This document shows, piece by piece, positions 912 through 14,084 of a stretch of DNA of 35,646 nucleotides. The stretch spans positions 1-35,646 of IMG/VR virus record IMGVR_UViG_3300023175_000115; one strand, given 5' to 3'. The notes under the pieces were generated by a model. It saw only the letters and a list, made by a program, of their open reading frames with translations. It was not told the DNA's origin and made no database searches. Numbering within the stretch: the first letter of the stretch is position 1; each line of letters starts with the position of its first letter. The DNA is from a virus. The position numbers were made by a program, and so were the translations under genes.

Positions 912-934
912 CCACTTTTTTGCAAATAAAATAG

Positions 935-962: not shown

Positions 963-991
963 GTGTATAGTTAAAAAGAGGAGCGAAAACT

Positions 992-1129: not shown

Positions 1130-1137
1130 AAAAACAG

Positions 1138-1165
1138 TTGACATTTTGGAAAATTGTGTTATAGT
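1138..1165 (+). promoter_or_regulatory. sigma70-type promoter for the 1200 gene
   Basis: TTGACA (1138-1143), 16 bp, TATAGT (1160-1165). The spacer has no ACCGGT. Confidence 0.65.
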
Positions 1166-1199
1166 AAAGCATAGTTAAAAAACAGCGAGAGGGCGTACA

Positions 1200-1454: not shown

Positions 1455-1474
1455 AAAAAATGTGCATTTTGGAC

Positions 1475-1502
1475 TTGACAAGTGTGTAAAAGAGCATATA
1501 AT
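1475..1502 (+). promoter_or_regulatory. sigma70-type promoter for the 1538 gene
   Basis: TTGACA (1475-1480), 16 bp, perfect TATAAT (1497-1502). No ACCGGT is present. Confidence 0.7.
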
Positions 1503-1537
1503 AGTATATGTAAGTTAACAAAAGCGAGAGGTAAATT

Positions 1538-2011
1538 ATGCAAAAATTACAAAACTTTTTAAAAACACTAAAAGCAAACTGCAACAACATTGCACACATT
1601 AGCGATGAGGGCAACACAGCACAGGTGACTATTAGTTTAGGTACAGGCTGGGCTGGTGACTATGCAGGTGGTTATTGGGGTGACTGTGCTATTACAGACG
1701 ACGAACTGCAAATTACATTTACAGTAGGCGACGTATACGACGATGGGGACTTTACTATAGGTGAAGGCATTGTGCAATTAACATACAAAGGCGGTGTTGA
1801 GAACAACGGACTTGCTTACACGGGCGAACTTGATAAAGAGGTGGGCAACGTGCTACAACACGTGACAGGTGGTATGTTATATTGTAGCGGTAGCGAACAG
1901 GGTATGCAGGGGCACTACGACGAAGACGAAAGTTATTTGAGCGTAGATATGGAGATTGTGGATAACACAAAACAAAAGGCAGTTGTTGCGAACGTTGTTA
2001 GTATAGGTTAA
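1538..2011 (+). CDS. Hypothetical early protein, Gly/Asp-rich (157 aa)
   Basis: The start ATG follows GCGAGAGGTAAATT, the second ribosome-binding-site type of this arm, and the promoter at 1475-1502. After a helical basic N-terminus of about 20 residues, the protein is rich in Gly, Asp, Val and Thr in a pattern suggesting beta structure, with a Gly/Trp cluster around residues 35-50. It is strongly acidic overall. No known family is recognised and no signal peptide is seen. It is monocistronic. Confidence 0.75.
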   Translation: MQKLQNFLKTLKANCNNIAHISDEGNTAQVTISLGTGWAGDYAGGYWGDCAITDDELQITFTVGDVYDDGDFTIGEGIVQLTYKGGVENNGLAYTGELDKEVGNVLQHVTGGMLYCSGSEQGMQGHYDEDESYLSVDMEIVDNTKQKAVVANVVSIG

Positions 2012-2020
2012 ACAAATTGG

Positions 2021-2049
2021 TTGACAGTATAGCATTTCGGTGCTATACT
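2021..2049 (+). promoter_or_regulatory. sigma70-type promoter for the 2081 operon
   Basis: TTGACA (2021-2026), 17 bp, TATACT (2044-2049), followed by a TATATACAG partial inverted repeat at the start point. Confidence 0.75.
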
Positions 2050-2080
2050 GTATATACAGTTTAAAAAATAAGGAGCGAAT

Positions 2081-2452
2081 ATGACATTTTACGTTTATCA
2101 CAAAACAGATTCACGCATTGAGACTGGTAAGGGCAATACGCATTACGGTCAGCACGAATACAACACAGAGGGTCAAGCAAAAGCGGCGATCACTCGTATT
2201 GTAAAGAAGGCTCAAGCAAAGCACGATCGTCTAAAGGCAAGCAAATACAGTTGGGATAATGAAAGAGCACAAGAGGCTCTAGATCGTGTGGCGGATCTTG
2301 CTATTGCTGAGCATGATGATTATCACGCTAATATTGAACAGTTCGAAACAGTTTATTCAATCTTTGATAGTAAAAAAGAGAAACCTGTAGTACAGAGCGT
2401 GAACACACCTCATTTTATGAGTGTATCAAGCGAAAGTTATTGGTGTATGTAA
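2081..2452 (+). CDS. Hypothetical early protein (123 aa)
   Basis: The ATG follows AAGGAGCGAAT at standard spacing. The middle (about residues 30-85) is strongly charged and alanine-rich and should be helical, with Arg/Lys-rich and Glu-rich stretches; the C-terminus is Ser-rich and ends in Trp-Cys-Met. No domain is recognised. It heads a two-gene unit with the 58-aa gene at 2453, whose ATG directly follows its TAA. Confidence 0.75.
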   Translation: MTFYVYHKTDSRIETGKGNTHYGQHEYNTEGQAKAAITRIVKKAQAKHDRLKASKYSWDNERAQEALDRVADLAIAEHDDYHANIEQFETVYSIFDSKKEKPVVQSVNTPHFMSVSSESYWCM

Positions 2453-2629
2453 ATGAAGACTCTAGTCGAAACAACGGTTTGGGGTGACAATACCCCAAAT
2501 CATACCTACTTCTTAGAGAACGATCGCTGTGTAGGCTACATCAAAGCAGGCACAAGCGAGAAGATTATGTTCAAAAAGCCTATGCGTTTTGATAAAAGAC
2601 GTAGAACTTTTAAGGAAATTAGGGGTTGA
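2453..2629 (+). CDS. Small basic hypothetical protein (58 aa)
   Basis: The ATG immediately follows the stop codon of the 2081 gene, indicating translational coupling. The product is basic at its C-terminus (an Arg/Lys-rich run around residues 42-55) and contains a VWGDNTPNHTYFLEND stretch near the N-terminus. No family is recognised. Its TGA stop (2627-2629) lies inside the TTGACA -35 box of the next promoter, so gene end and promoter have been compressed onto the same bases. Confidence 0.7.
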   Translation: MKTLVETTVWGDNTPNHTYFLENDRCVGYIKAGTSEKIMFKKPMRFDKRRRTFKEIRG

Positions 2630-2654
2630 CAAAACCGGTAATGCCGTATATAAT
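2626..2654 (+). promoter_or_regulatory. sigma70-type promoter with ACCGGT, overlaps stop codon
   Basis: TTGACA (2626-2631), 17 bp starting AAACCGGT, TATAAT (2649-2654). The TGA stop of the upstream gene is part of the -35 box. Confidence 0.8.
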
Positions 2655-2677
2655 ATAAAAATAATGAAAGGAATGGT

Positions 2678-2923
2678 ATGGAAAAACTCAACTCAATAGT
2701 ATTAGCGATCACTGTAGGCATTGTGGCTTACTTGTTCGTTGAAGTGCAGGACTTGAAAGAGACAGATTCATTCTTCACCGAGTCTCAACCGGTGGTGACA
2801 TCATGTGGTGAGAAACCGGATATGGTGGTGAGAGATGTATTTGCTGAATTCAAAAATCTAGTCATCGAACTTAAGAAGTTGGAAGACGAAACCTTGCCCG
2901 ACGTTAAATTGGAGGACAAATGA
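2678..2923 (+). CDS. Small membrane-anchored hypothetical protein (81 aa)
   Basis: The ATG follows GAAAGGAATGGT and the promoter at 2626-2654. Residues 5-22 form one hydrophobic segment; the rest is a polar, Glu/Lys-rich domain likely to be partly helical, with one cysteine near residue 43. This is a single-pass, probably N-in topology. Its stop overlaps the ATG of the 2920 gene (ATGA), so the two small membrane proteins are probably made together. Paired small membrane proteins can be spanin-like, but the early promoter and absence of a lipobox argue against lysis genes here. Confidence 0.7.
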   Translation: MEKLNSIVLAITVGIVAYLFVEVQDLKETDSFFTESQPVVTSCGEKPDMVVRDVFAEFKNLVIELKKLEDETLPDVKLEDK

Positions 2924-3060
2924 GAATTCTAATTGGTATTGCAATTGGTGTCTTTGGAACTTTATTCTATGTGGATCCCTCGATGATCGATCCACTGTTG
3001 ACCCAAGCCCAAGAAGTAGTTAGAGCAATTGGACAATTTCTGGTTGACAAAACCGGTTAA
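2920..3060 (+). CDS. Small membrane-anchored hypothetical protein (46 aa)
   Basis: The start overlaps the previous stop as ATGA. Residues 2-17 are hydrophobic (start MRILIGIAIGVFG) and could be a membrane anchor or uncleaved signal; the rest is amphipathic helix. The last residues, VDKTG, are encoded by the -35 box and ACCGGT element of the next promoter (3044-3072), so the protein's end is shaped by regulatory DNA. No family is recognised. Confidence 0.65.
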   Translation: MRILIGIAIGVFGTLFYVDPSMIDPLLTQAQEVVRAIGQFLVDKTG

Positions 3061-3072
3061 TCCAGTTATAAT
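3044..3072 (+). promoter_or_regulatory. sigma70-type promoter inside the end of the 2920 gene
   Basis: TTGACA (3044-3049), 17 bp with AAACCGGTT, TATAAT (3067-3072). The -35 box and ACCGGT are coding sequence of the preceding gene. Confidence 0.8.
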
Positions 3073-3101
3073 ATAGTTATTGTTTAATTAAGGAGCGACC
3101 T

Positions 3102-3380
3102 ATGGAAAACAAGACTTATATCTTTCACACTGATCCCGGACACGGCTGGTTGGCTGTTCCGTTCAAAGATCTTATCGCATTCAACATCACAGATAAGATC
3201 TCAGGCTATTCATACATCAAAGGCAAGACTGCATACCTCGAAGAAGATTGTGATGCAGGAGTGTTCATTGATGCATTCAAACAACGCTTTGGTAAGATGT
3301 TTGAATACCGTACATCATATCAAGAGCGTACACAGATTCGCTATTTCGAAAACTATACAGCAGACAAGGTGGCGGCGTAA
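3102..3380 (+). CDS. Hypothetical early protein (92 aa)
   Basis: The ATG follows TTAAGGAGCGACCT and the promoter at 3044-3072. The product is a soluble mixed-charge protein rich in aromatic residues, with a short alanine-ending C-terminus. No domain is recognised. Its TAA shares an A with the ATG of the 3380 gene (TAATG), giving a coupled two-gene unit. Confidence 0.75.
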   Translation: MENKTYIFHTDPGHGWLAVPFKDLIAFNITDKISGYSYIKGKTAYLEEDCDAGVFIDAFKQRFGKMFEYRTSYQERTQIRYFENYTADKVAA

Positions 3381-3550
3381 TGTTTAAACTATATTGGAAA
3401 GGTGAGTGTATTGATCAGTTCGATACACTCGATGAGGCTCAAAAGATGCAAGCCGAATACAATATGGCATATGGTGGAGGAGTCATTATAGACGATGGCT
3501 CTAACGATGCTGAGTATGAACTAGCAATGGCTGAGTTTCACGGTAGTTGA
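3380..3550 (+). CDS. Small acidic hypothetical protein (56 aa)
   Basis: The ATG overlaps the stop of the 3102 gene by one base (TAATG), typical of translational coupling. The peptide is acidic, starts MFKLYWKGECIDQFDTLDEA and contains a helix-friendly DEAQKMQAEYNMA stretch followed by GGGVIIDDG. The sequence pattern recalls small phage proteins that carry a two-strand and helix fold, but no family can be assigned. Confidence 0.7.
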   Translation: MFKLYWKGECIDQFDTLDEAQKMQAEYNMAYGGGVIIDDGSNDAEYELAMAEFHGS

Positions 3551-3567
3551 TCACTGAAAAATAATGG

Positions 3568-3596
3568 TTGACAATACCGGTTTTGTCTGTTATAAT
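3568..3596 (+). promoter_or_regulatory. sigma70-type promoter with ACCGGT
   Basis: TTGACA (3568-3573), 17 bp with TACCGGTTTTGTC, TATAAT (3591-3596). It is nearly identical to the promoters at 4100 and 7754. Confidence 0.8.
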
Positions 3597-3627
3597 TATT
3601 ATATAATTTAACAATAAGGAGCGATAT

Positions 3628-3897
3628 ATGAAACTATCAACAATCATTGCAGAGATCCACTCTATGAACAGAGACGATCTTAACAAGGTAGTCGAGGCTG
3701 TGAAGTATGCGAGATCGCAGGCACACAGACAAGCGGCGAACTCACTCAAGGCAGGTGACACAGTATTCTTCGACGGTAGGTATGGTAAGACCGTTAAGGG
3801 CACGGTGATCAAGACTGCCATCAAGTATGTACAGGTTGACTGTGGCATAGATGGTCGTTGGAGAGTACCGGCGGCACATTTGAGGTTGGCGGCATAA
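3628..3897 (+). CDS. Small phage protein with probable SH3/KOW-like barrel (89 aa)
   Basis: The ATG follows TAAGGAGCGATAT. Residues 1-35 are helical (MNRDDLNKVVEAVKYARSQA) and residues 42-80 show the alternating pattern of a small beta barrel: a GDTVFFDGRYGK turn, then VKGTVIK and YVQVD strands, ending in WRVPAAHL. Similar helix-plus-barrel proteins are common in T4-like phages and are of unknown function; nucleic-acid binding is a guess. It is translationally coupled to the membrane protein at 3897 (TAATG). Confidence 0.75.
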   Translation: MKLSTIIAEIHSMNRDDLNKVVEAVKYARSQAHRQAANSLKAGDTVFFDGRYGKTVKGTVIKTAIKYVQVDCGIDGRWRVPAAHLRLAA

Positions 3898-4103
3898 TGT
3901 TAAACGTATTGAAGTGGGTGGCTACGGCCACCCTAATCATCGGCTTTGGTTTGATGAGTTCCGGCAACACAGATGGCTGGTACTTACAGATCACCGGTGG
4001 TATCCTATGGTTGATTGCGGCTGTGATGATGAAGGACAAACCCCTCATTGCCACAAATGCAACCATGACAATCGTAGGGATAATAGGCAGACTTTTCGGT
4101 TGA
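3897..4103 (+). CDS. Small integral membrane protein (68 aa)
   Basis: The ATG overlaps the preceding stop (TAATG); an earlier in-frame ATG at 3858 would run through the previous gene and is unlikely. Three hydrophobic stretches (about residues 6-20, 33-46 and 51-66) suggest two or three membrane passes, with a short loop containing Asn-Thr-Asp-Gly-Trp. The stop TGA (4101-4103) is embedded in the next -35 box. No family is recognised; it resembles the 4898 product in size and hydrophobicity. Confidence 0.65.
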   Translation: MLNVLKWVATATLIIGFGLMSSGNTDGWYLQITGGILWLIAAVMMKDKPLIATNATMTIVGIIGRLFG

Positions 4104-4128
4104 CAAAACCGGTTTTGTCTGTTATAAT
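4100..4128 (+). promoter_or_regulatory. sigma70-type promoter carrying an 18-bp palindrome
   Basis: TTGACA (4100-4105), 17 bp, TATAAT (4123-4128). Positions 4102-4119 form a perfect palindrome, GACAAAACCGGTTTTGTC, running from inside the -35 box almost to the -10. This is the cleanest copy of the ACCGGT element and looks like an operator. Confidence 0.85.
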
Positions 4129-4160
4129 GTAATTACAAAATAAAAAAATAGGAGCGAGAT

Positions 4161-4340
4161 ATGTCAGATAATTTTAAAGAAAACGTATTCGAATTTTTAG
4201 ACGACTTACGTGAGAGCGGCGCTGTTAATATGTTTGGCGCAGGACAATTTGTACAAGAAGCATTCGACGTTGATAGACGTGAAGCAAGAACGCTGGTAGG
4301 AGAGTGGATGGACACTTTCTCTGAGAGGCACTCTGTATGA
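4161..4340 (+). CDS. Small acidic hypothetical protein (59 aa)
   Basis: The ATG follows ATAGGAGCGAGAT. The product is helical and acidic (start MSDNFKENVFEFLDDLRESG). Residues 25-55 resemble a small helical unit in which the phrase FVQEAFDVDRREARTLVGEW recurs in many phage early proteins of unknown role. Its stop overlaps the next start as ATGA, so it is coupled to the 4337 gene. Confidence 0.7.
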   Translation: MSDNFKENVFEFLDDLRESGAVNMFGAGQFVQEAFDVDRREARTLVGEWMDTFSERHSV

Positions 4341-4837
4341 AGAAGGTTGGTTTAGACTTCTTCTTTAATAGAGAAGATGATTGGGGAGCCAACTACAACA
4401 ACATGGACTTCTATATGTACAATGTCCAAAGGCTTAGATGGCTTTTGGTCGATGCGGACTACCTAGAAGGCAACCCATTTGCTAAATGCGTGGACCTAGA
4501 CACATTAGAGATCAAGGACCAAGCAAGGTTCCAAAGCCTGCAGGAGAGGGATCACGATGCCCTAGTTGAAATGGTCGAGGACAAAGGTTGGGATTGGTTA
4601 GGCGATGACTTTGATCACATGGAAGCCTATCTATCCTTTATCATGCAACATGATAGAGCATTCTGTTATAGTGTAAAGGGTGAAGGATACAAATGCGACA
4701 GCGATTACCTACACATCGAGACTTGGAGCATACCAGAGAAGTTCCTCGAGAGTGATGCTCTGCGTGATGCCTACATTGCTGGATCCTCTAATGAAAGTGG
4801 CGACTACCATATGGATTCCGAGAGTCACGGCTGGTAA
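4337..4837 (+). CDS. Hypothetical early protein (166 aa)
   Basis: The start overlaps the preceding gene as ATGA. The protein is acidic, rich in Trp, Tyr and Asp, and soluble. It opens with MKKVGLDFFFNREDDWGANY and has a C-terminal stretch rich in Ser/Asp/His. No catalytic motif or known domain is seen. It is expressed with the 59-aa protein from the palindromic promoter at 4100. Confidence 0.75.
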   Translation: MKKVGLDFFFNREDDWGANYNNMDFYMYNVQRLRWLLVDADYLEGNPFAKCVDLDTLEIKDQARFQSLQERDHDALVEMVEDKGWDWLGDDFDHMEAYLSFIMQHDRAFCYSVKGEGYKCDSDYLHIETWSIPEKFLESDALRDAYIAGSSNESGDYHMDSESHGW

Positions 4838-4845
4838 TTTTTTGG

Positions 4846-4874
4846 TTGACAACTGGTAAAACCGGTGCTATACT
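4846..4874 (+). promoter_or_regulatory. sigma70-type promoter, ACCGGT next to -10
   Basis: TTGACA (4846-4851), 17 bp, TATACT (4869-4874). ACCGGT lies at the -10 side of the spacer, the same arrangement as at 6694. Confidence 0.8.
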
Positions 4875-4897
4875 GTAAGCATAATAAGGAGAGCGAA

Positions 4898-5092
4898 ATG
4901 AAACAATTGAAAACATATTTGGGATTCTTTTTTATCGTAGCAGGAATCATTATGATGGCTGGCTCAGCAGGCGACTGTGATGGTGCTTGTATGGAGAACG
5001 CTAATACGATAGGCGAGATGCTAATGATTGCATTCATTGGTCTATGCTTGTTTGGCACAGGCGCATTCATAGCCATTTCAAGTGAAAAATAA
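4898..5092 (+). CDS. Small integral membrane protein (64 aa)
   Basis: The ATG at 4898 follows AAGGAGAGCGAA; the longer frame would begin before the promoter's -10. Two hydrophobic helices (about residues 7-24 and 42-60) flank an acidic loop with a Cys-Asp-Gly-Ala-Cys pair, which could be disulphide bonded if the loop is periplasmic. No known family. It is monocistronic, between two promoters of the same class. Confidence 0.7.
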   Translation: MKQLKTYLGFFFIVAGIIMMAGSAGDCDGACMENANTIGEMLMIAFIGLCLFGTGAFIAISSEK

Positions 5093-5095
5093 TGG

Positions 5096-5124
5096 TTGAC
5101 AATACCGGTAATTCCGTGTATACT
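5096..5124 (+). promoter_or_regulatory. sigma70-type promoter with ACCGGT
   Basis: TTGACA (5096-5101), 17 bp starting ATACCGGTA, TATACT (5119-5124). Confidence 0.8.
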
Positions 5125-5156
5125 GTATATATAAATTGAAACAAAAGGAGCGATAA

Positions 5157-5669
5157 ATGGCTACAAGAGCACGAATTGGTCTACAGCAAGACAACGGCAC
5201 AATCATTGCCGCATATCAACATTGGGATGGTTATCCGGGTGGCTTAGGTTATACCCTATGCGAACACTGGGAAGATCCTGCAAAGGTAGAAGAAGGCATC
5301 CGACTAGGCGATGCTTCTAATTGGAAATACATCGTAGGCACGAAGGTAGACTTCGACGATAGGAATGATCCTATGCACGATGTCCAAAATGTCTACTACG
5401 GCAGAGACAGAGGCGAAAAGAATGTAGGCTTCCGTACTTACAAAGACGAAGCAGAGTTCATTGCTGAAGGCTTTAACACAGGTGAAGAATACATTTACCT
5501 AATGAAGAACACAGGTAAGAAGGATTACTTAGGCAAAGCAATAGGCGAATGGTTCTATTGTGCATACGACAAAAAGTTCTTTATCGAACTAGAGGAGGTT
5601 GCTATTAACGAGCATATCGAAATGCTCAAGCGACACCTAGAGTTGATGAAGCAACAGAAGGCGGCGTAA
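5157..5669 (+). CDS. Conserved phage hypothetical protein (170 aa)
   Basis: The ATG follows AAAGGAGCGATAA. The N-terminus carries the motif YQHWDGYPGGLG at about residues 20-31, which I recognise from a family of phage proteins that begin MATRA and have no assigned function. The rest is a mixed alpha/beta domain ending in a Lys/Glu-rich helix (about residues 145-168). Soluble, no membrane segment. It is probably monocistronic, since an inverted repeat follows 24 bases after the stop. Confidence 0.75.
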   Translation: MATRARIGLQQDNGTIIAAYQHWDGYPGGLGYTLCEHWEDPAKVEEGIRLGDASNWKYIVGTKVDFDDRNDPMHDVQNVYYGRDRGEKNVGFRTYKDEAEFIAEGFNTGEEYIYLMKNTGKKDYLGKAIGEWFYCAYDKKFFIELEEVAINEHIEMLKRHLELMKQQKAA

Positions 5670-5692
5670 ACCGAAATTATCAGCAAAGGCTT

Positions 5693-5727
5693 CGGGGTAT
5701 AGTTAAATAATAGCACACTATACCCCG
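5693..5727 (+). promoter_or_regulatory. 11-bp inverted repeat spanning a late-type promoter
   Basis: The arms CGGGGTATAGT (5693-5703) and ACTATACCCCG (5717-5727) are perfect. Between them lies TAAATAATAGCAC; TAAATA (5704-5709) is a T4-type late -10 element, and the 14-base word TAAATAATAGCACA is identical to 15456-15469. No T tract follows, so it is not a terminator. The predicted late +1 would be near 5715, so the late transcript would keep only the right arm, while a read-through early transcript could form the whole hairpin next to the GGAGG binding site at 5727-5731. Confidence 0.6.
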
Positions 5728-5738
5728 GAGGATAACAA

Positions 5739-6086
5739 ATGACAACAGAGTTTCAACATCAGCGAATTCAAGTGCCAACAGGCATTGAAACAAATGAAAA
5801 CGGTATCGTTGAGGCTGTGTGGGAAAGTCGTTTGGTGACCAGTTTGGAAGAATTGAAACAGGCCAATGCTGATATTAAGGCATTCCAGGAAAAGCATGGC
5901 GCTCGTAAGTTCAAGAACGCTACGAAGATCTTGGATAAGTTTGGATTGTCTGTAAAGGTGGCGAACACTGATCTTCCAGATGTGAAAGAACACAAACGGA
6001 ATCACCCGCACACCAAACCAAGAGCATTCATGGGCCCGAACTATGTTCCGGAAGACACTCATGATAATCATTTGGACAAGAAGTAA
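5739..6086 (+). CDS. Hypothetical protein (115 aa)
   Basis: The ATG follows GGAGGATAACAA, a different leader from its neighbours. This is the one gene in the left arm headed by a late-type TAAATA element within an inverted repeat rather than by TTGACA. The protein is soluble, basic at the C-terminus (His/Lys/Pro-rich from about residue 83) and helical in the middle. No family is recognised. The different promoter suggests expression later than its neighbours, or in two phases. Confidence 0.7.
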   Translation: MTTEFQHQRIQVPTGIETNENGIVEAVWESRLVTSLEELKQANADIKAFQEKHGARKFKNATKILDKFGLSVKVANTDLPDVKEHKRNHPHTKPRAFMGPNYVPEDTHDNHLDKK

Positions 6087-6105
6087 TTTTGGACAAAGTT
6101 TTTGG

Positions 6106-6134
6106 TTGACAGATTGGCCAAACTGTGCTATTAT
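6106..6134 (+). promoter_or_regulatory. sigma70-type promoter for the 6191 operon
   Basis: TTGACA (6106-6111), 17 bp, TATTAT (6129-6134). The spacer has TTGGCCAA instead of ACCGGT. Confidence 0.7.
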
Positions 6135-6140
6135 ATAATC

Positions 6141-6164
6141 ACAATGAGAGATCATTGTATTTTT
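6141..6164 (+). terminator. Leader hairpin followed by Ts (possible attenuator)
   Basis: ACAATGA (6141-6147), GAGA loop, TCATTGT (6152-6158), then ATTTTT. It sits between the promoter at 6106 and the start at 6191, so it could prematurely stop transcription or protect the 5' end. The stem is AT-rich, so the terminator call is tentative. Confidence 0.4.
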
Positions 6165-6190
6165 AATAACTCAAAATAGGAAAGGCAGTT

Positions 6191-6490
6191 ATGACAAACA
6201 AGACGTTCAAATATGCAGGTGTATCAACCAGCAATGGCAAAACTAAAATTAGGTTTGCAAACGATATCATGAGAATCAAAGTTCTGGATAAGAATGGTCA
6301 CGAAGGCGTGAACATCAAAGAACTTCCTACAGAGATGTTGAAAGGTGATGCTGTTAAGCACTTATCTTCAATCGGATTTGCAGGCGAAGATTCAAACATC
6401 AAAGCGGCTCTAGATAAAGCGGCTAAGAAGTATGGTGTAAGTCTTACACAACCTGCAGTTGAAACAGAATCAACTGTAAATGTTGCGTAA
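6191..6490 (+). CDS. Hypothetical early protein (99 aa)
   Basis: The ATG follows TAGGAAAGGCAGTT, a non-standard leader for this arm, downstream of the hairpin at 6141-6164. The product is a basic soluble protein starting MTNKTFKYAGVSTSNGKTKI, with helices in the C-terminal half (GEDSNIKAALDKAAKKYGVS). No family is identified. Its last 11 bases overlap the start of the 6480 gene. Confidence 0.7.
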   Translation: MTNKTFKYAGVSTSNGKTKIRFANDIMRIKVLDKNGHEGVNIKELPTEMLKGDAVKHLSSIGFAGEDSNIKAALDKAAKKYGVSLTQPAVETESTVNVA

Positions 6491-6707
6491 TTACATCACA
6501 GCACTTGTGGTAGTGGGGGCATTGATTGTCCCCACCCACGCTTATTCATTTGATTTGCTCACTGTAATTAAGAGGGCAATTCAAATCAATAACATCAACA
6601 ACAACCTCGATCGGTTGAACCTCCCACAGGAACTAGAAAAGATAGCCATAAAAACTGTGGAAAATTATCCTAAGCAAAGAGAAAGAAATAAGGTTGACAA
6701 TAGGTAA
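6480..6707 (+). CDS. Small exported protein with signal peptide (75 aa)
   Basis: The ATG at 6480 overlaps the previous gene by 11 bases. Residues 1-21 form a classic signal peptide (MLRNYITALVVVGALIVPTHA) with an Ala at the likely cleavage site. The mature part is about 54 residues, polar and Asn-rich, with an amphipathic helix. The C-terminal Lys-Val-Asp-Asn-Arg is encoded by the -35 box of the next promoter. Probably periplasmic. No family assigned. Confidence 0.65.
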   Translation: MLRNYITALVVVGALIVPTHAYSFDLLTVIKRAIQINNINNNLDRLNLPQELEKIAIKTVENYPKQRERNKVDNR

Positions 6708-6722
6708 AACCGGTGCTATAAT
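6694..6722 (+). promoter_or_regulatory. sigma70-type promoter inside the end of the 6480 gene
   Basis: TTGACA (6694-6699), 17 bp ending AACCGGTGC, TATAAT (6717-6722). It is closely similar to the promoter at 4846. Confidence 0.8.
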
Positions 6723-6756
6723 ATAAGAACAATTAAACAAAGCAAAGGAGCGAGCG

Positions 6757-7359
6757 ATGCCAAATTGGTGCAACAACACAATCAGGCTAACAGGGCCTAA
6801 AGAAAAGATCAAATCAATATTCGACAAAGCAAAAGAGTCGAATCAATTTCTACAACAACTACATCCTATGCCTGCAGAACTAGAAGGCACAACTTCACCA
6901 GCGCCTAAAGACGGAGAGCCACAACCGTTGGTAGATGGACACGACAACTGGTATGACTGGAGAGTTGACAACTGGGCAACCAAGTGGGATGTTGATATGG
7001 ACGGATTGGAACTTGTGGAGAACGATGACTCCGCAACCATCCAGGGTTGGTTCGATAGTGCATGGTCACCACCAACAGGTGCTTACGGGTATTTCCTAGC
7101 AAAGAATGAGGATTGCAGTATTCACTCTTACTTCTACGAAGGTGGTATGGACTTTGCAGGTGAATGGGATGACGGTTGTGATACAACGATCAATCCTAGC
7201 GAGTATAACGCGGACCAGATGGAAGATCCTAACGCTGGACTCATCTATGAACTCAACGAACACTTTGGTTTCTCGGATTGGGTGCGTGAGTATGAAGAAG
7301 AACAGAAAACAGATACAGAGAAGTTCATTGTAGACAAGGAGCCAGTCAATGTCGGATAA
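6757..7359 (+). CDS. Api92-like / DUF1281-type protein (200 aa)
   Basis: The ATG follows AAAGGAGCGAGCG. The N-terminal MPNWCNNTIRLTGP, the LHPMPAEL segment near residue 35, the YDWRVDNWATKWDV block near residues 66-79 and FDSAWSPPTGAY near residues 99-110 are hallmarks of the DUF1281/Api92-like family, which has a ferredoxin-like fold and is widespread in phages and plasmids without a known function. Length (200 aa) is normal for the family. The C-terminus is acidic. The next gene (7349) starts within the last codons of this one, so the two are coupled. Confidence 0.8.
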   Translation: MPNWCNNTIRLTGPKEKIKSIFDKAKESNQFLQQLHPMPAELEGTTSPAPKDGEPQPLVDGHDNWYDWRVDNWATKWDVDMDGLELVENDDSATIQGWFDSAWSPPTGAYGYFLAKNEDCSIHSYFYEGGMDFAGEWDDGCDTTINPSEYNADQMEDPNAGLIYELNEHFGFSDWVREYEEEQKTDTEKFIVDKEPVNVG

Positions 7360-7747
7360 CCTACCTAAGGATTTCAAAGACATGGAAGATGACGCAATCG
7401 TTGGAGAGGACAGTCGTTCTCTCCAACTGACCCACTATGTGTTGGCTGAGCGTTTGATGCAATGTGAATACGCTATCATCGCCAAAGAGATCGTAGAGCA
7501 ACCATGCAGTGACACGCTCATCTATATCTTAGAAGGCGGCCTCCGAGGCTACCACAAATGCACAGCAGGTGAACTGTGGAGTGAATGGAAGGATGGTGCC
7601 GAGGACAAGTGGTACGAGATGTATGAAGATGGCACCCTGCCATGGGAGGTCTTCGAAGACGATCCTATTCTCTCACTAGAAGAAGATGAGAATGGTGAAG
7701 TTGCAACCTACGGTAAGCGTTTGACTGATGCTTTTGGGCACGAATAA
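7349..7747 (+). CDS. Acidic hypothetical protein (132 aa)
   Basis: The ATG overlaps the end of the DUF1281-like gene by 11 bases, with a GGAGCCAGTCA binding site inside that gene. The protein is strongly acidic with many Glu/Asp/Trp residues and appears helical around residues 25-70. The C-terminus repeats short Glu/Asp clusters. No family is recognised. It is co-transcribed from the promoter at 6694. Confidence 0.75.
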   Translation: MSDNLPKDFKDMEDDAIVGEDSRSLQLTHYVLAERLMQCEYAIIAKEIVEQPCSDTLIYILEGGLRGYHKCTAGELWSEWKDGAEDKWYEMYEDGTLPWEVFEDDPILSLEEDENGEVATYGKRLTDAFGHE

Positions 7748-7753
7748 AAACGG

Positions 7754-7782
7754 TTGACAAAACCGGTATTGTCTGTTATACT
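7754..7782 (+). promoter_or_regulatory. sigma70-type promoter with ACCGGT
   Basis: TTGACA (7754-7759), 17 bp AAACCGGTATTGTCTGT, TATACT (7777-7782). The palindrome of the 4100 promoter is present with one mismatch pair. Confidence 0.8.
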
Positions 7783-7814
7783 GTAAGTATAAACAATAAA
7801 GAAAGCGAGGCAAT

Positions 7815-7973
7815 ATGAAGTTTGAATTTGATTACAGCAAAATGTCGGACGAAGAAGTAGTGATGACATATAACGCAGTGATGGCTAACGCTTACTTAGG
7901 TGACGAATGTGCGTTAGAAGATGAAATGGAAAAGCGTGGCTTAGACGCAGACAGTTTTAGCGGAGAGTACTAA
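7815..7973 (+). CDS. Small acidic hypothetical protein (52 aa)
   Basis: The ATG follows AAGCGAGGCAAT, the second binding-site type of this arm. The peptide is acidic, helical and Met-rich (MKFEFDYSKMSDEEVVMTYN). No family is recognised. Its TAA overlaps the ATG of the 7973 gene (TAATG). Confidence 0.7.
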   Translation: MKFEFDYSKMSDEEVVMTYNAVMANAYLGDECALEDEMEKRGLDADSFSGEY

Positions 7974-8188
7974 TGGCGACGAATTTGGAAAGCAGAACAC
8001 AGGGTGTAGCATTGACACGCTTTTGGGGCGGTGCAGAACGCGGAACCTGTGTGCAAGTTAATGCTCGAAAATGGCAAGGTCATGTGCAGTTGACACGCGA
8101 ACAAGCGGCTGAATTGGCACATGATTTGATGGCTTTTGCTGACGGTTTGGAAACTGAAGAGTGGTGCAGAGGCGCAGAAAAATATTAA
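7973..8188 (+). CDS. Small hypothetical protein (71 aa)
   Basis: The start overlaps the preceding stop by one base. The sequence opens MATNLESRTQGVALTRFWGG, then has strand-like WQGHVQLTREQAAELAHDLM, which suggests two strands packed on a helix. Phages carry many such small proteins of unknown function. It is coupled with the 52-aa gene. Confidence 0.7.
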   Translation: MATNLESRTQGVALTRFWGGAERGTCVQVNARKWQGHVQLTREQAAELAHDLMAFADGLETEEWCRGAEKY

Positions 8189-8207
8189 AAAAAGTTGAAA
8201 AAAATGG

Positions 8208-8235
8208 TTGACATTTTGGACAGCGATGCTATACT
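8208..8235 (+). promoter_or_regulatory. sigma70-type promoter for the 8268 operon
   Basis: TTGACA (8208-8213), 16 bp, TATACT (8230-8235). The 22 bases at 8225-8246 are identical to 730-751. No ACCGGT is present. Confidence 0.75.
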
Positions 8236-8267
8236 ATATGTATAGTAAGAAATAAGGAGCGAACAAT

Positions 8268-8603
8268 ATGAACACTTTTATCGTCACTACACAGGGTTTA
8301 GAAAACTACGGCGCACACGCAGAGAGCGGTAAGTTCTCCGATGGGCAGAACTATTGGAAGTTCAAGTCGGGCACTGACTACATGGTCACTGGCCTCGAGC
8401 GTCCTGCGGATGCTATGGCGTTCGTTGCCGCAATTGGCATCGAGAACGGCATTGGTTGGAAAGAGTTCCCAAGCCATGTGCAGACTCTTGAGGACTTCGA
8501 GAGTGAGTTCGATATGACCGATGAGTTCGATAAAGAGCACTTCGAGTTCAAGATGAAGTATATGCAGAAGGTCGACCCTCGAACCTACAAGAAGGCAGCC
8601 TAA
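8268..8603 (+). CDS. Hypothetical early protein (111 aa)
   Basis: The ATG follows AAGGAGCGAACAAT. The protein is soluble and acidic, with a VTTQGLENYGAHAESG N-terminus, an alanine-rich middle (about residues 45-60) and a Phe/Glu-rich helix near residues 70-95. No family is recognised. It shares one base of its stop with the 8603 start (TAATG). Confidence 0.75.
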   Translation: MNTFIVTTQGLENYGAHAESGKFSDGQNYWKFKSGTDYMVTGLERPADAMAFVAAIGIENGIGWKEFPSHVQTLEDFESEFDMTDEFDKEHFEFKMKYMQKVDPRTYKKAA

Positions 8604-8821
8604 TGGAGTATCGTGGATACACCTACGTGGAGGACCTGCAGGAGGAGGATGACAACCGTAAGATCTTCCACGAGATCGAGAGAGAGGATGGCTCCCGTGT
8701 TGAGTGGAGTCGAATCCCTCAGGAGTTCATCCAAATATCTCCATATCGATCAGCAACACGCGAAGAGTTCGAACGTGCTGTGGACCATGTATTTTTTATG
8801 GATTTAACGGTTGACAAGTAA
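8603..8821 (+). CDS. Small hypothetical protein (72 aa)
   Basis: The ATG overlaps the preceding stop. The protein is acidic, begins MEYRGYTYVEDLQEEDDNRK and contains the segment SRIPQEFIQISPYR. Its last residues, Val-Asp-Lys, and its stop lie in or beside the -35 box of the promoter at 8811-8838. No family is assigned. Confidence 0.7.
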   Translation: MEYRGYTYVEDLQEEDDNRKIFHEIEREDGSRVEWSRIPQEFIQISPYRSATREEFERAVDHVFFMDLTVDK

Positions 8822-8838
8822 GCATAAGATGCTATACT
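8811..8838 (+). promoter_or_regulatory. sigma70-type promoter inside the end of the 8603 gene
   Basis: TTGACA (8811-8816), 16 bp, TATACT (8833-8838). The -35 box encodes part of the upstream protein. Confidence 0.75.
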
Positions 8839-8862
8839 ATATAGATAATGAAGGAGCGAACA

Positions 8863-9093
8863 ATGTTAAAATTAGCGTATTGCGATAAGATTGCTGACAG
8901 CATTCAAAAGGCTTTAAAGCAAACTGATCCGGATGGTATAATTAAAGAAGTGAGCAAGATCGAATGGGACTTGCATCCAACAGAGGGTTATTTCATTTCA
9001 CCTAAGAAAATGATGACTGTGCATGACATGAACGGTAAGGCTTATGTTGTCACAATTGAAGAAGCACCAGTGCTTGATAAGGAGACGTTGTAA
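8863..9093 (+). CDS. Small hypothetical protein (76 aa)
   Basis: The ATG at 8863 is preceded by GAAGGAGCGAACA; the longer frame from 8848 would leave the binding site inside the gene. The product is a soluble alpha/beta peptide with a helical N-terminus (about residues 5-28) and a beta-rich second half (GYFISPKKMMTVHD, then KAYVVTIEEAP). No family is recognised. It is coupled to the acidic protein at 9093 (TAATG). Confidence 0.7.
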   Translation: MLKLAYCDKIADSIQKALKQTDPDGIIKEVSKIEWDLHPTEGYFISPKKMMTVHDMNGKAYVVTIEEAPVLDKETL

Positions 9094-9269
9094 TGATTGA
9101 TCCGTTTGAAAAGGTAAAGACGTTCGAAGACCTGATTGATGAAATCGAACAGAACGATACTTCAGATGATGTGTTCTCTGATATGGACAGCATTGAAGAA
9201 ATGCAGGACGAAGAATTTGGAGAATTTTCAGGCGTCGAAGGTATTGACAATTACGACGACTGGAATTAA
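9093..9269 (+). CDS. Very acidic small protein (58 aa)
   Basis: The ATG overlaps the preceding TAA. Of 58 residues, 22 are Asp or Glu and only two are Lys, with no Arg or His. The acidic residues are spread along a predicted helix in an i, i+3/4 manner over residues 12-50. Such composition is seen in DNA-mimic and anti-restriction proteins and in inhibitors of nucleic-acid enzymes, but no family is recognised. The last codons carry the -35 box of the promoter for the AAA ATPase gene. Confidence 0.7.
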   Translation: MIDPFEKVKTFEDLIDEIEQNDTSDDVFSDMDSIEEMQDEEFGEFSGVEGIDNYDDWN

Positions 9270-9272
9270 AAT
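9244..9272 (+). promoter_or_regulatory. Probable sigma70-type promoter for the AAA ATPase gene
   Basis: TTGACA (9244-9249), 17 bp, TAAAAT (9267-9272). It is wholly within or touching the end of the upstream gene, has no ACCGGT, and the -10 box is weaker than in its neighbours. Confidence 0.55.
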
Positions 9273-9302
9273 AATAATATAAACTGTTAACAAGGAGCGA
9301 AA

Positions 9303-10343
9303 ATGAAAACAGCACTAATTCAATTTAATGAGGGTACGTACAAGATCCGAGGCAACGACATGAGTGTGTCAGGTCTTAAGTTTCCTCTAATCCAACATTT
9401 CAAAGATGGCAAGAACGGCGCCTACGTCACAGTTGACGGCGCGGCACAGCCAGGCTTTCCAGAGCGTAGTATACGTATCAAAGTAGAGAGCCCACAGAGT
9501 TATGAAATCGTTGACAGCAACTTTGATCAGGTCAAGCAGGATGCATTAAAAGCAAGTGTCAAGGACACAGAAACTGATGAGCAGATCATGGAACGTATTG
9601 GTAAACGTTTTGAAATTCTAGACGAGATGACTCGTGCCAGTAAGGAAGGTAATGTACGTGCAATGATCGTAAGTGGCCCTCCAGGAGTCGGTAAGTCATA
9701 CGGTGTTGAACAGCAACTTGAAAAGGATTCACTGTTTGATGATGTATCAGGATCCAGGAGACGATATGAGATCGTTAAGGGTGCAATGTCAGCAATTGGA
9801 CTCTATGCTAAGTTGTTCAAGTACAGCGATCCAAAGAACGTAGTTGTGTTTGATGACTGTGACTCGATCCTACTAGATGACATCAGTCTGAACATTCTTA
9901 AGGCCGCACTGGACACTAGTAAGAAACGATACATTAGTTGGAACACTGATTCGCGTTTACTGCGTTCAGAAGGTATTCCAGATCGTTTTGAATTCAAAGG
10001 TTCAGCGATCTTTATTACAAACATCAAGTTTGAAAACGTGCGATCCAAGAAACTTAAAGATCACTTGGAAGCACTTGAATCACGTTGTCATTATGTTGAC
10101 CTAACAATTGACACAGAACGTGAGAAGATGTTGCGTATCAAGCAGATTGTGCGTGACGGTATGCTCGAAGAGTATGATATGCCTCAAGAGCGTAAAGACG
10201 ACGTGGTAGAGTTCATTGATGAGAACAGAACTCGACTACGTGAATTGAGTTTGCGAACAGTACTTAAATGTGCTGACCTCGCTAAAAGTTTCCCTTCAAA
10301 TTGGAGGGATTACGCGGCGACCACTGTGTTAAGAGCCTCTTAA
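9303..10343 (+). CDS. AAA-family ATPase (346 aa)
   Basis: The ATG follows CAAGGAGCGAAA. Residues 1-95 form an N-terminal substrate- or DNA-binding region; a Walker A motif GPPGVGKS lies at about residues 125-132 and Walker B VVFDDCDS at about 181-188. An Asn-bearing strand (AIFITNIKF, about 236-244) fits sensor 1, and residues after 270 form a helical lid with an arginine-rich end. This is the layout of single-domain AAA ATPases common in T4-like phages, often annotated only as ATPase. The role is unknown; protein remodelling or DNA-linked functions are possible. It is the only gene in the left arm with a clear enzymatic fold. Its stop codon lies in the first of two hairpins described separately. 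Confidence 0.8.
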   Translation: MKTALIQFNEGTYKIRGNDMSVSGLKFPLIQHFKDGKNGAYVTVDGAAQPGFPERSIRIKVESPQSYEIVDSNFDQVKQDALKASVKDTETDEQIMERIGKRFEILDEMTRASKEGNVRAMIVSGPPGVGKSYGVEQQLEKDSLFDDVSGSRRRYEIVKGAMSAIGLYAKLFKYSDPKNVVVFDDCDSILLDDISLNILKAALDTSKKRYISWNTDSRLLRSEGIPDRFEFKGSAIFITNIKFENVRSKKLKDHLEALESRCHYVDLTIDTEREKMLRIKQIVRDGMLEEYDMPQERKDDVVEFIDENRTRLRELSLRTVLKCADLAKSFPSNWRDYAATTVLRAS

Positions 10344-10427
10344 TCTCTTACCCTCGCTCAAAGGGGCTCAGTCGCGTTAACTTAGGGCAGTACTGGAATT
10401 CGCTCCTCTGGTACTGCCCTTCCTTTT
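10333..10427 (+). ncRNA. Tandem hairpins with loops complementary to the arm's Shine-Dalgarno boxes; second acts as terminator
   Basis: Hairpin I pairs GAGCCTCTT (10333-10341) with AAGGGGCTC (10361-10369); its 19-nt loop contains CTTACCCTCGCTC (10347-10359). Hairpin II pairs AGGGCAGTAC (10384-10393) with GTACTGCCCT (10411-10420) and is followed by TTCCTTTT, so it is also an intrinsic terminator; its 17-nt loop contains TTCGCTCCT (10399-10407), the exact reverse complement of AGGAGCGAA. That is the extended binding site of the AAA ATPase gene itself and six other genes, and 13 genes share the 8-base AGGAGCGA. Loop I is nearly complementary to the second binding-site type (GCGAGAGGTAA). A 3'-UTR-derived regulatory RNA is my inference; the pairing is directly visible. 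Confidence 0.6.
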
Positions 10428-10465
10428 GGCCACAAAATCAGTGACAAATTAATTGGAAAAACCGG

Positions 10466-10494
10466 TTGACAAACATCCAAAGTGAGCCTATAAT
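10466..10494 (+). promoter_or_regulatory. sigma70-type promoter, ACCGG abuts -35
   Basis: TTGACA (10466-10471), 17 bp, TATAAT (10489-10494). AAAACCGG directly precedes the -35 box, as at 713. Confidence 0.8.
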
Positions 10495-10527
10495 ATATGT
10501 ATAAGTTAAACAAAAGGAGCGAAACTT

Positions 10528-10869
10528 ATGACACAGGTAGCAGTAATTCATTCAGCATTTTCGGACAAGCACAATCCACACGTGGTAGCATTTGTAGAGG
10601 CTGGTGAGCGTACGGGCACTGAAGCATTGGAGTACGCATATCGCGTGACACAGAACATTGAGGGTTCATGGAGCAAGGGTCCTACATTTGAATGGGAAGG
10701 TGAAACACACACCAACCCAGACTTCAACCCAGACATCACAGTAATGGTTCCACTTACACTTACTCCGGAAGGCAAGGAGTACGGATTGCGTTCAACTTCA
10801 ATGGGCGACCAGATGCTGTTGGGCACAGACAAATATGAAGTAGCCGCATTTGGCTTTGACAAACTATAA
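10528..10869 (+). CDS. Hypothetical early protein (113 aa)
   Basis: The ATG follows AAAGGAGCGAAACTT. The protein is soluble and slightly acidic, with alternating strand-like segments (MTQVAVIHSAFS, then VVAFVEAGERTG) and a central Trp-Gly-rich loop. The C-terminus ends in a hydrophobic VAAFGFDKL. No family is recognised. The 10879 gene follows ten bases later with its own GGAGCGAAC site, so the two form an operon. Confidence 0.75.
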   Translation: MTQVAVIHSAFSDKHNPHVVAFVEAGERTGTEALEYAYRVTQNIEGSWSKGPTFEWEGETHTNPDFNPDITVMVPLTLTPEGKEYGLRSTSMGDQMLLGTDKYEVAAFGFDKL

Positions 10870-10878
10870 GGAGCGAAC

Positions 10879-11148
10879 GTGAAATTATCCAAAAAGAAAC
10901 TATTCAAAGCACTGGATCTATTCTTCAACACTGAAGCATATAGCACAGATGGATTGAATGCAAAGGGCATTGGTGATGAGACCTACGGTCGAGACAGTCG
11001 TATATACGTAGACACTAAAGGCAAACGAGGCGAATTGGAACGCTTCTTGCGTGGCTTAGGCTTTACTGTCAACACCAATTACAGCAAGGGCAGTGACTTC
11101 ACAGAAGTCTGTGTATCCTATTTCAAGGGCCGACACTGGGACGAATAA
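10879..11148 (+). CDS. Hypothetical protein with GTG start (89 aa)
   Basis: The GTG start is chosen because it stands three bases after AAGGAGCGAAC and begins a basic N-terminus typical of its neighbours (Lys-Leu-Ser-Lys-Lys-Lys). The rest is mixed alpha/beta, with Gly-rich turns and a C-terminal FKGRHWDE. No family is identified. It lies in an operon with the 10528 gene. Confidence 0.75.
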   Translation: MKLSKKKLFKALDLFFNTEAYSTDGLNAKGIGDETYGRDSRIYVDTKGKRGELERFLRGLGFTVNTNYSKGSDFTEVCVSYFKGRHWDE

Positions 11149-11152
11149 GGGG

Positions 11153-11181
11153 TTGACACAAACCCAAAGTGACTGTATTAT
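11153..11181 (+). promoter_or_regulatory. sigma70-type promoter for the 11214 gene
   Basis: TTGACA (11153-11158), 17 bp, TATTAT (11176-11181). The spacer has no ACCGGT but is similar to that of the 10466 promoter (CCAAAGTGA shared). Confidence 0.75.
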
Positions 11182-11213
11182 ATACTTACAAACTACAAAA
11201 CAAGGAGCGATAT

Positions 11214-11621
11214 ATGTTAAATTCAGCAACAGGTACAATGGCAACAGTAGCACAAGACATCAAGCAGTATACAGCAGATGACATACGTGCTATCAAAGCA
11301 GAAGCAGTAAGCGAAGCAAAGAAAGCAGTAGCCAAGTTCCTAGCAGAGTGGACAGAGAGCACAGGTGGCAATGAGTATGGTGAGCCTATGTATTGTGGCT
11401 TTGCTTGGACTAACATCTACAACATCAAAGGCAATACCAAACTAGGTAAAGCATTCAAAGCCGCTGGCATTGAAAAGGATTACAGTGGTGCGTATAGCAT
11501 TTGGGATCCTGCAGAGCACAGAGGACAGAGCATGGATGCTAAAGAAGTAGGTGCACAGGCTTGTGCAGATGTGTTCCGCAAGTATGGCTTTACTGCGTAT
11601 ATGGGTAGCAGAGCAGACTAA
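11214..11621 (+). CDS. Conserved phage hypothetical protein (135 aa)
   Basis: The ATG at 11214 follows CAAGGAGCGATAT; the longer frame begins inside the promoter. The first 60 residues form an alanine-rich helix with many Glu/Lys. The C-terminal half contains YCGFAWTNIYNIKGNTK and AYSIWDP, a pattern I associate with a family of phage proteins of unknown function that have a small alpha/beta fold. It is the last gene of the early arm and is followed by a strong terminator. Confidence 0.75.
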   Translation: MLNSATGTMATVAQDIKQYTADDIRAIKAEAVSEAKKAVAKFLAEWTESTGGNEYGEPMYCGFAWTNIYNIKGNTKLGKAFKAAGIEKDYSGAYSIWDPAEHRGQSMDAKEVGAQACADVFRKYGFTAYMGSRAD

Positions 11622-11624
11622 TCG

Positions 11625-11679
11625 CAAACGGTTCGCGAACGTTTGGAAATGAGCGGCAGAGATGTCGCTCATTTTTTTT
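11625..11679 (+). terminator. Intrinsic terminator closing the early arm
   Basis: AAATGAGCG (11647-11655) pairs with CGCTCATTT (11666-11674), followed by eight Ts to 11679. Just before it, CAAACG (11625-11630) and CGTTTG (11640-11645) make a second hairpin containing the palindrome GTTCGCGAAC. Both lie after the 11214 gene and mark the end of the plus-strand early block. Confidence 0.8.
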
Positions 11680-11741
11680 GGCTGAAGAATCTTTTTTGAA
11701 AATAAAAAAGGCGAGGGGCTTTATATATAAAACCATGGTGA

Positions 11742-11758
11742 TGCAGAATCACCAGGCA
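11742..11758 (+). repeat. Short hairpin in the 11.7-12.1 kb intergenic region
   Basis: GGTGAT-GCAGA-ATCACC is a perfect six-base-pair hairpin. It precedes AGGAGAAAAAATG, the start of a 22-codon frame. The 487-base stretch between 11622 and 12108 otherwise holds the terminator, the weak small frame, an 8-bp inverted repeat (11925-12007) and T-rich sequence; no clear gene is seen. Confidence 0.35.
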
Positions 11759-11767
11759 GGAGAAAAA

Positions 11768-11836
11768 ATGAAATTTAAAAAAATTGTAGCAGAAAATTTT
11801 ACATACTATATACCCCTCTCTAAACAAGGTATTTGA
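11768..11836 (+). CDS. Possible 22-residue peptide
   Basis: ATG to TGA gives 22 residues (start MKFKKIVAENFTYYIPLSKQ) with AGGAG seven bases upstream. It has no promoter of the class seen to the left, and a frame this short occurs easily by chance. It could be a leader peptide or not translated. Confidence 0.2.
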   Translation: MKFKKIVAENFTYYIPLSKQGI

Positions 11837-12108
11837 ATCGTTTGTATAACTAGTATTTTGGAATGCGTAAACAGTGTACATACTATCCAAAACTTCCTCT
11901 AACACAGTATCTACTGCGTACAGGCGCTATATTACCTCTTAAACAGTCTCGGGCAGTCAAACATACTCGTAAGGCTAGTAAGACCCGTGTATGACGCTTA
12001 TATAGCGTTTAAGACACCACTACGCACACACTGTAAAAGCAACCACCCCCCTGTAGAGTAGTGTATTCAAATTTTTTTTGTACAGATTTTTTTTGATTAA
12101 CTATACGT

Positions 12109-13889: not shown

Positions 13890-14084
13890 ATGAATAGATT
13901 CGATCATTTACATCGAATGTACCGCGAAGAAAAACAGCGTGAACGTAAACGTAAGATCCTAAATCATTCTAGATCTGAAGTTGATATAAACGCAAATGGT
14001 ACATCAGGATATGTTGTAAAGCACGGACCTAATGTGGGTAAGATACTCGCACATCGCAGTCCAAAGTCTACTAACAACTGGTAG
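13890..14084 (+). CDS. Riboswitch-controlled small basic protein (64 aa)
   Basis: The ATG follows GGGGAGGGTGAC, which lies in the expression platform of the glutamine riboswitch. The first 30 residues are a highly basic helix (start MNRFDHLHRMYREEKQRERK); the rest is polar with Gly and Asn. Short peptides downstream of this riboswitch class are known from cyanobacteria and marine phages; some regulate glutamine synthetase in cyanobacteria (the GlnA-inactivating-factor type). Whether this one does so cannot be decided from sequence. Confidence 0.7.
   Translation: MNRFDHLHRMYREEKQRERKRKILNHSRSEVDINANGTSGYVVKHGPNVGKILAHRSPKSTNNW

Follow-up and report, generated by a model that had tools for sequence, protein, structure and literature searches.

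The 3′ end of the AAA ATPase transcript in the window (the whole stretch of viral DNA that was analysed, 35,646 nucleotides) is predicted to form two hairpins, the loops of which are complementary to leaders of the phage's own early genes. It is likely that this 3′ end represents a two-hairpin riboregulator, which acts in trans on the early leaders and reduces translation of the early regulon. Base pairing between loops and leaders is well supported by the sequences compared; that the RNA is a separate fragment, that it represses rather than activates, and that it does so in a timed manner is what we infer. The element and its carrier gene comprise the following features:

9303–10343, plus strand: carrier gene, AAA ATPase (phrog_1250, T4 NrdC.10-like), with its own leader AGGAGCGAA
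10333–10369, plus strand: hairpin I, by folding, 9-bp stem and 19-nt loop (10342–10360)
10384–10420, plus strand: hairpin II, 14-bp stem and 9-nt loop ATTCGCTCC (10398–10406), anti-leader to AGGAGCGA(A)
10421–10427, plus strand: T-rich tract TCCTTTT, directly 3′ of hairpin II

Sequences and coordinates of both hairpins and of the T-rich tract agree with an earlier note on this DNA, which had placed them in the 3′ untranslated region (3′UTR). This placement is right for hairpin II. The 5′ arm of hairpin I, however, extends over the final codons of the ATPase gene and its stop codon (10341–10343), and the element is thus not purely 3′UTR. Hairpin II and TCCTTTT probably form a transcription terminator, so that the element occupies the 3′ end of the mRNA and closes at this intrinsic terminator; the T tracts at the same site are longer in relatives (T5–T8), and the promoter of the following gene (10466) is situated just 3′ of hairpin II. 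The twin-hairpin fold has a z-score of −3.6, with none of 200 shuffles equally stable. Within the loop of hairpin I, CTTACCCTCGCTC (10347–10359) is anti-leader to AGCGAG(A)GG leaders. The loop bases are unpaired with values of about 0.8–1.0; the one exception is the final T of TCGCTCCT, by which the stem is closed.

A consensus promoter search detected no promoter inside the ATPase ORF, and the RNA would therefore be the terminated 3′ end of the mRNA, processed or not. Distant homologues of the ATPase are numerous among cultured phages (49% identity in PA5oct, about 34–36% in T4-type phages); no direct nucleotide relatives were found among cultured phages and no ATPase relatives in GTDB genome contigs. 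Comparison of the element with Rfam covariance models gave no gathering-level match, the best low-threshold matches being unrelated chance hits, and a known Rfam RNA was rejected as an identity of the window hairpin since no Rfam model fits. Elsewhere in the window, a glutamine riboswitch (RF01739, 13818–13865, plus strand, 50.1 bits, above the gathering score) is located just 5′ of a small ORF (13890–14084), and the replication arm holds a NolO-like carbamoyltransferase gene (phrog_1601, 18110–19093, minus strand).

Seventeen leaders of two types are found in the window, and loops I and II jointly cover all of them. The box AGGAGCGA occurs in 13 forward copies in the 35.6 kb, every one a gene leader 3–12 nt 5′ of the start codon, and seven of these extend to the full nine bases AGGAGCGAA, in line with the 13 leaders named before. 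Its sole reverse copy, at 10400, lies in the unpaired loop II, which is indeed the exact reverse complement of the leader box. The control pattern, AGGAGCGA read backwards, does not occur in the window. The earlier list of targets was incomplete, as gene 4898 (loop II) and genes 1200 and 7815 (loop I) have to be added:

979–986, plus strand: leader AGGAGCGA (AGGAGCGAA) of gene 992, loop II target
1184–1192, plus strand: leader AGCGAGAGG of gene 1200, loop I target, −9.2 kcal/mol net
1523–1531, plus strand: leader AGCGAGAGG(TAA) of gene 1538, loop I target, −14.2 kcal/mol net
2071–2078, plus strand: leader AGGAGCGA(A) of gene 2081, loop II target
3091–3098, plus strand: leader AGGAGCGA of gene 3102, loop II target
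3617–3624, plus strand: leader AGGAGCGA of gene 3628, loop II target
4150–4157, plus strand: leader AGGAGCGA of gene 4161, loop II target
4887–4896, plus strand: variant leader AGGAGAGCGA of gene 4898, target of loop II (−12.0) and loop I (−10.3)
5146–5153, plus strand: leader AGGAGCGA of gene 5157, loop II target
6746–6753, plus strand: leader AGGAGCGA of gene 6757, loop II target
7804–7810, plus strand: leader AGCGAGG of gene 7815, loop I target, −10.7 kcal/mol net
8255–8262, plus strand: leader AGGAGCGA(A) of gene 8268, loop II target
8852–8859, plus strand: leader AGGAGCGA(A) of gene 8863, loop II target
9293–9300, plus strand: leader AGGAGCGA(A) of the ATPase gene 9303, possible autoregulation
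10515–10522, plus strand: leader AGGAGCGA(A) of gene 10528, loop II target
10869–10876, plus strand: leader AGGAGCGA(A) of gene 10879, the only target that lacks a promoter of its own
11203–11210, plus strand: leader AGGAGCGA of gene 11214, loop II target

With the exception of gene 10879, a consensus promoter is situated just upstream of each leader (16 of 17). Internal operon genes mostly have ordinary Shine-Dalgarno sequences, and the two leader types are almost confined to promoter-proximal genes. On contigs measuring up to 364 kb, AGGAGCGA leaders are concentrated mainly in one stretch of about 10–20 kb, which is rich in small genes and dense in promoters like the left arm of the window and which, judged by this architecture, is taken here as the early region. 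Between positions 700 and 12000 of the window, many early promoters have AACCGG or ACCGGT in or beside the −35 box or spacer, e.g. TTGACAAAACCGGTTTT. AACCGG is present in 11 copies in 1–12000 versus two in the remaining 23.6 kb and is a possible operator of a phage transcription regulator.

The RNA-RNA interaction check proposed in the earlier note separates these leaders from other sites of the window. Net of the cost of opening the leader, loop II averages −12.0 kcal/mol on leader regions, −4.4 kcal/mol on other start regions and −2.4 kcal/mol on random windows, with about −11 to −18 kcal/mol on the AGGAGCGA leaders. For loop I, the mean is about −9 kcal/mol on its leaders and about −2 kcal/mol on other starts, and the near-complementarity to the leader of gene 1538 pointed out before is borne out by the energy given above. 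As loop II takes the AGGAGCGA leaders and loop I the other type, the leader set is divided between the two loops. Part of the complementarity is due to the Shine-Dalgarno-likeness of the leaders, since the loop cores (CUCC, CCUC) resemble the ribosomal anti-Shine-Dalgarno sequence; the 16S anti-Shine-Dalgarno on six leaders yields −6.3 to −9.2 kcal/mol, opening cost not included. A minus-strand consensus promoter (911–883) is followed by GAGAGCGAGGGGTAAG (700–905, minus strand), which is nearly complementary to loop I and has no start codon close by. Its transcript could be a non-coding RNA or a sponge for loop I.

In close relatives, seven IMG/VR contigs (L001–L007) with ATPase identities of 84–99%, the hairpins at the ATPase 3′ end are kept, with rewritten stems and preserved loops, apart from the loss of loop II in L002. 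Loop I reads TTACCCTCGCTC in all seven. Loop II reads ATTCGCTCC, the form ATTCGCTCC(T) included, in L001 and L003–L005, and ATCCTCGCTCC in L006 and L007. The latter sequence is complementary both to GGAGCGA and to AGCGAGGA, and L006 and L007 have both leader types. L007 possesses three anti-leader hairpins in a row after the ATPase gene (1700–1950), and the hybrid loop ATCCTCGCTCC is present in two of these. In L002 (90% ATPase identity), AGCGAGG(T) mostly replaces AGGAGCGA, which is nearly gone; loop I is kept, loop II is lost, and the terminator loop is now GTTCTGTTTAGCAC.

Covariation in related phages, a further check suggested before, is seen on a larger scale: leaders and loops switch together, in the pairs AGGAGCG/TCGCTCC, GAGGGCA/TGCCCTC and AGCGAGG/CCCTCGCT, and several clades without leader are also without loop. 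Leader versions named beside AGGAGCGAA are AGCGAGAGGTAA and GAGGGCAA. A sister ATPase clade around L064 has GAGGGCA(A) leaders, and its ATPase 3′UTRs usually contain two to four hairpins with the loops TGTGCCCTCG and AGCCCTCACG (GCCCTC). Phages with related ATPases (L199, L208, L215–L217, L219, L220) combine AGGAGCG leaders with loops GATTCGCTCC in the same place, and no such loops were found at the ATPase 3′ site of those among L183/L186 and L193–L213 that have neither leader type.

In more distant AGGAGCG phages, the next gene follows directly 3′ of the ATPase gene and the element is located behind other genes, for which reason the view that the ATPase alone serves as carrier was abandoned. 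The carriers there are a small HTH-like gene, a small homologue of 6191–6490 of the window, or both, and the anti-leader hairpins lie 4–35 nt from the carrier stop codon, usually before a T tract. The carriers lack an AGGAGCG leader for 66 of the 75 elements in AGGAGCG phages, which supports action in trans rather than merely autogenous action, and a U-rich tract is found near 56 of the 75. Where the HTH-like gene occurs in phages without nearby AGGAGCG leaders, it is followed by a plain terminator only. L150 had been considered as a leader-rich phage without loop and was rejected, because its leaders and loops occur together elsewhere in the genome: the anti-leader loops at 13001, 17940 and 17984 of L238 adjoin the AGGAGCG cluster behind other genes, and this placement is a further change of carrier. 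In cultured phages, the search for small carrier genes yielded no more than a distant homologue, that of Pelagibacter phage HTVC008M, where the homologue of the HTH-like gene adjoins a gene for bS21 (91237–91392). bS21 (PF01165) is also encoded by several of the long contigs behind L066, L139, L150, L163 and L109. This protein is located near the 16S anti-Shine-Dalgarno in the ribosome and might influence the use of extended leaders.

A census was carried out on a dereplicated set of 102 contigs of at least 6 kb, comprising 49 AGGAGCG, 12 GAGGGCA and 41 other contigs. A 3′UTR copy was defined as TCGCTCC within 200 nt after a stop codon, and antisense copies of leaders were removed since they could inflate the counts. 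A hairpin finder that accepts only perfectly paired stems overlooked elements with internal loops and was abandoned in favour of this census combined with folding. The 49 AGGAGCG contigs contain 404 TCGCTCC, of which 319 are leader antisense, 74 follow a stop codon within 200 nt and eight lie in long ORFs. A 3′UTR copy is present in 47 of the 49 AGGAGCG, two of the 12 GAGGGCA and ten of the 41 other contigs, most members of each leader class being mutually related; at least five of these ten are fragments with few leaders and a typical hairpin. The case that had been named as refuting, a leader kept with complementarity lost, is limited to the two remaining AGGAGCG contigs, both short fragments (9.2 and 6.1 kb). 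Conversely, TGCCCTC is found in a hairpin loop in 10 of the 12 GAGGGCA versus eight of the 49 AGGAGCG contigs.

The match between loops and leaders is equally apparent when leaders are picked by their promoter and not by motif. The AGGAGCG-class loop reaches a median duplex energy of −13.1 kcal/mol on leaders of its own class and −6.7 kcal/mol on GAGGGCA leaders, and the GAGGGCA-class loop −14.7 kcal/mol on its own and −7.6 kcal/mol on AGGAGCG leaders. Matched pairs are thus about 6 kcal/mol better than mismatched ones, and either loop yields about −7 to −8 kcal/mol on leaders of other phages. Moreover, the 10-bp stem of the HTH-gene element shows 32 compensatory cells versus 12.8 in shuffles (0 of 500) and at most 16 when slid, while the loop letters TCGCTCCCGG do not vary. 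With the 15-mer CCGATTCGCTCCCGG as sole criterion, the viral loci retrieved, some on contigs overlapping the earlier contig set, have 3.12 AGGAGCG leaders per 10 kb, compared with 0.05 at cellular matches. The latter, about the chance number in 257 Gb, were rejected as true elements and served as control. On the ATPase tree, AGGAGCG leaders give five independent contrasts, about three concordant with the loop and none opposite, which is not significant by a sign test; with few independent leader switches, phylogeny-corrected tests lack power. What makes the case strong is that different kinds of evidence converge: stems change while loops stay constant, both partners switch, the element moves between carriers, and leader and loop are lost together.

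Several other explanations were weighed against these data. Many copies lie in or beside intrinsic terminators, as the U-rich tracts indicate, and the loop might be a protein-binding site or merely part of a conserved terminator, its match to the leaders reflecting coincidence or composition. This is very improbable: a protein that recognises one strand would need no reverse complement of the leader, a terminator alone would not keep its loop invariant while the stem covaries, and the loops change with the leader class in an association absent from class N and from the cellular control loci. Since the loops contain CUCC/CCUC cores and host-directed phage sRNAs exist (review PMC12197685), they could instead mimic the ribosomal anti-Shine-Dalgarno against host mRNAs, with the likeness to phage leaders being secondary. 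A generic target, however, would not make the loop track lineage-specific extensions (CGA versus GCA), nor would loops be expected to be absent where phage leaders are absent, which leaves this explanation improbable.

If pairing with the leaders is accepted, its reach and direction have to be considered. In the window and in the GAGGGCA clade, the ATPase carriers mostly have a matching leader, and each loop could pair in cis with the leader of its own mRNA (5′–3′ closure), autoregulating just the carrier. The predominantly leaderless HTH-like and MATEKK carrier genes make such an arrangement hardly probable as the whole explanation. Pairing could also be positive or neutral for translation, the loops shielding the 5′ ends of early mRNAs against decay or a nuclease, or delivering them to a processing factor. 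The sequence supports pairing and not its direction, and nearly all targets are promoter-proximal leaders near mRNA 5′ ends. However, the duplex spans the Shine-Dalgarno core 4–12 nt before the start codon, a position at which pairing blocks initiation in icaR (PMC3868564) and NfeR1 (PMC10746234), and a positive or neutral role is therefore considered unlikely. By the same analogy, occlusion of initiation is the natural reading of an anti-leader that covers the Shine-Dalgarno core together with its extension, and repression or early shut-off is the most likely outcome.

Comparison with known systems revealed partial parallels. The alpha-r14 or 'cuckoo' sRNAs of Alphaproteobacteria (NfeR1; PMC10746234; Reinkensmeier and Giegerich 2015, as cited therein) present an anti-Shine-Dalgarno motif in several unpaired loops on strongly divergent stems, and have redundant seeds that bind mRNAs where translation is initiated and silence them. 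The phage element likewise has multiple hairpins (two in the window) with the same loop motif and divergent stems. However, the cuckoo motif is the plain anti-Shine-Dalgarno CCUCCUCCC in a cellular gene with its own promoter and host metabolic mRNA targets, whereas the phage loops, TCGCTCC(T/C), CCCTCGCTC or (T/A)GCCCTC, read a phage-specific extension, sit in early-gene 3′UTRs and have several lineage versions that follow the leaders. Because CCUCCUCCC is absent and Rfam gives no match, the element was not filed as a member of this family. In the icaR mRNA of Staphylococcus aureus, a 3′UTR motif also pairs with the Shine-Dalgarno region, blocking initiation and inviting RNase III (PMC3868564), yet there the single target is the same mRNA; this holds for the window ATPase, but not for the many elements with leaderless carriers and multiple targets. 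The CiaR-controlled csRNAs of streptococci (PMC3091779) are similarly short, often with two stem-loops and unpaired stretches against Shine-Dalgarno and start codon, but their complementary part lies between the stem-loops, includes an anti-AUG and belongs to free-standing cellular sRNA genes. As in 3′UTR-derived trans-acting sRNAs, an accessible seed, multiple mRNA targets and covariation are found, with limited phylogenetic independence.

In T4, RegA and RegB likewise exert post-transcriptional control of many early mRNAs at initiation regions, RegB reading GGAG in Shine-Dalgarno sequences; these agents, however, are a protein repressor and an endoribonuclease (PMC3014915), while the phage element is a predicted RNA. 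RegA (PF01818) was not found in 13 long, possibly incomplete contigs by a search which finds the RegA of HTVC008M, and the RNA may thus do part of RegA's job in these phages. RegB (PF10715) was likewise not found; that search lacked a positive control, and no weight is given to it.

On the preferred reading, the riboregulator would consist of about 10330–10427 of the ATPase transcript. Each loop would offer a single-stranded anti-leader of 9–13 nt for pairing in trans with promoter-proximal early leaders, loop II with AGGAGCGA(A) and loop I with AGCGAG(A)GG(TAA). Such a duplex would cover the Shine-Dalgarno core together with an extension (CGA, AGCG, GCAA) that is specific to the phage and not read by the ribosome, and inclusion of this extension would render it stronger than ribosomal pairing and selective for the phage's own early mRNAs. 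With accumulation of the carrier mRNA or of its terminated 3′ fragment, translation of the early regulon would fall, in this clade including that of the carrier itself. The earlier note had proposed an antisense regulator that also controls its own gene. Pairing and trans action are supported, and autoregulation is possible in the window's clade, but it is not a general rule given the leaderless carriers. Since hairpin I contains the ATPase stop codon, it should be kept open by ribosomes that complete the ATPase; if the ATPase is poorly translated, hairpin I would be set free, a possible feedback. On a more tentative and rather doubtful level, leader and anti-leader may form a diversifying code without cross-regulation between codes, in which the RNA could silence related superinfecting phages and drive diversification.

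For virulent T4-like phages, there is almost no documentation of small RNAs that act in trans on the early programme of the phage itself, and no phage RNA of the present design was described in the literature searched, a scope outside which most subscription papers fell. For T4, no small trans-acting RNA was reported as functionally characterised, with the suggestion that related genomes might reveal candidates (PMC3014915), and the element is a candidate of this kind. It has a readable code, more than 12 targets per genome and natural covariation experiments (L002, GAGGGCA clade), and it is broadly distributed in aquatic metagenomes. If the proposal is true, it would equip the early-to-late switch with an RNA analogue of RegA/RegB, account for the constant non-ribosomal extension of the early leaders, and be a source of orthogonal riboregulator parts. 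As the leaders change between phages and the loops change with them, this T4-like phage family probably possesses an RNA switch that turns down its own early genes.
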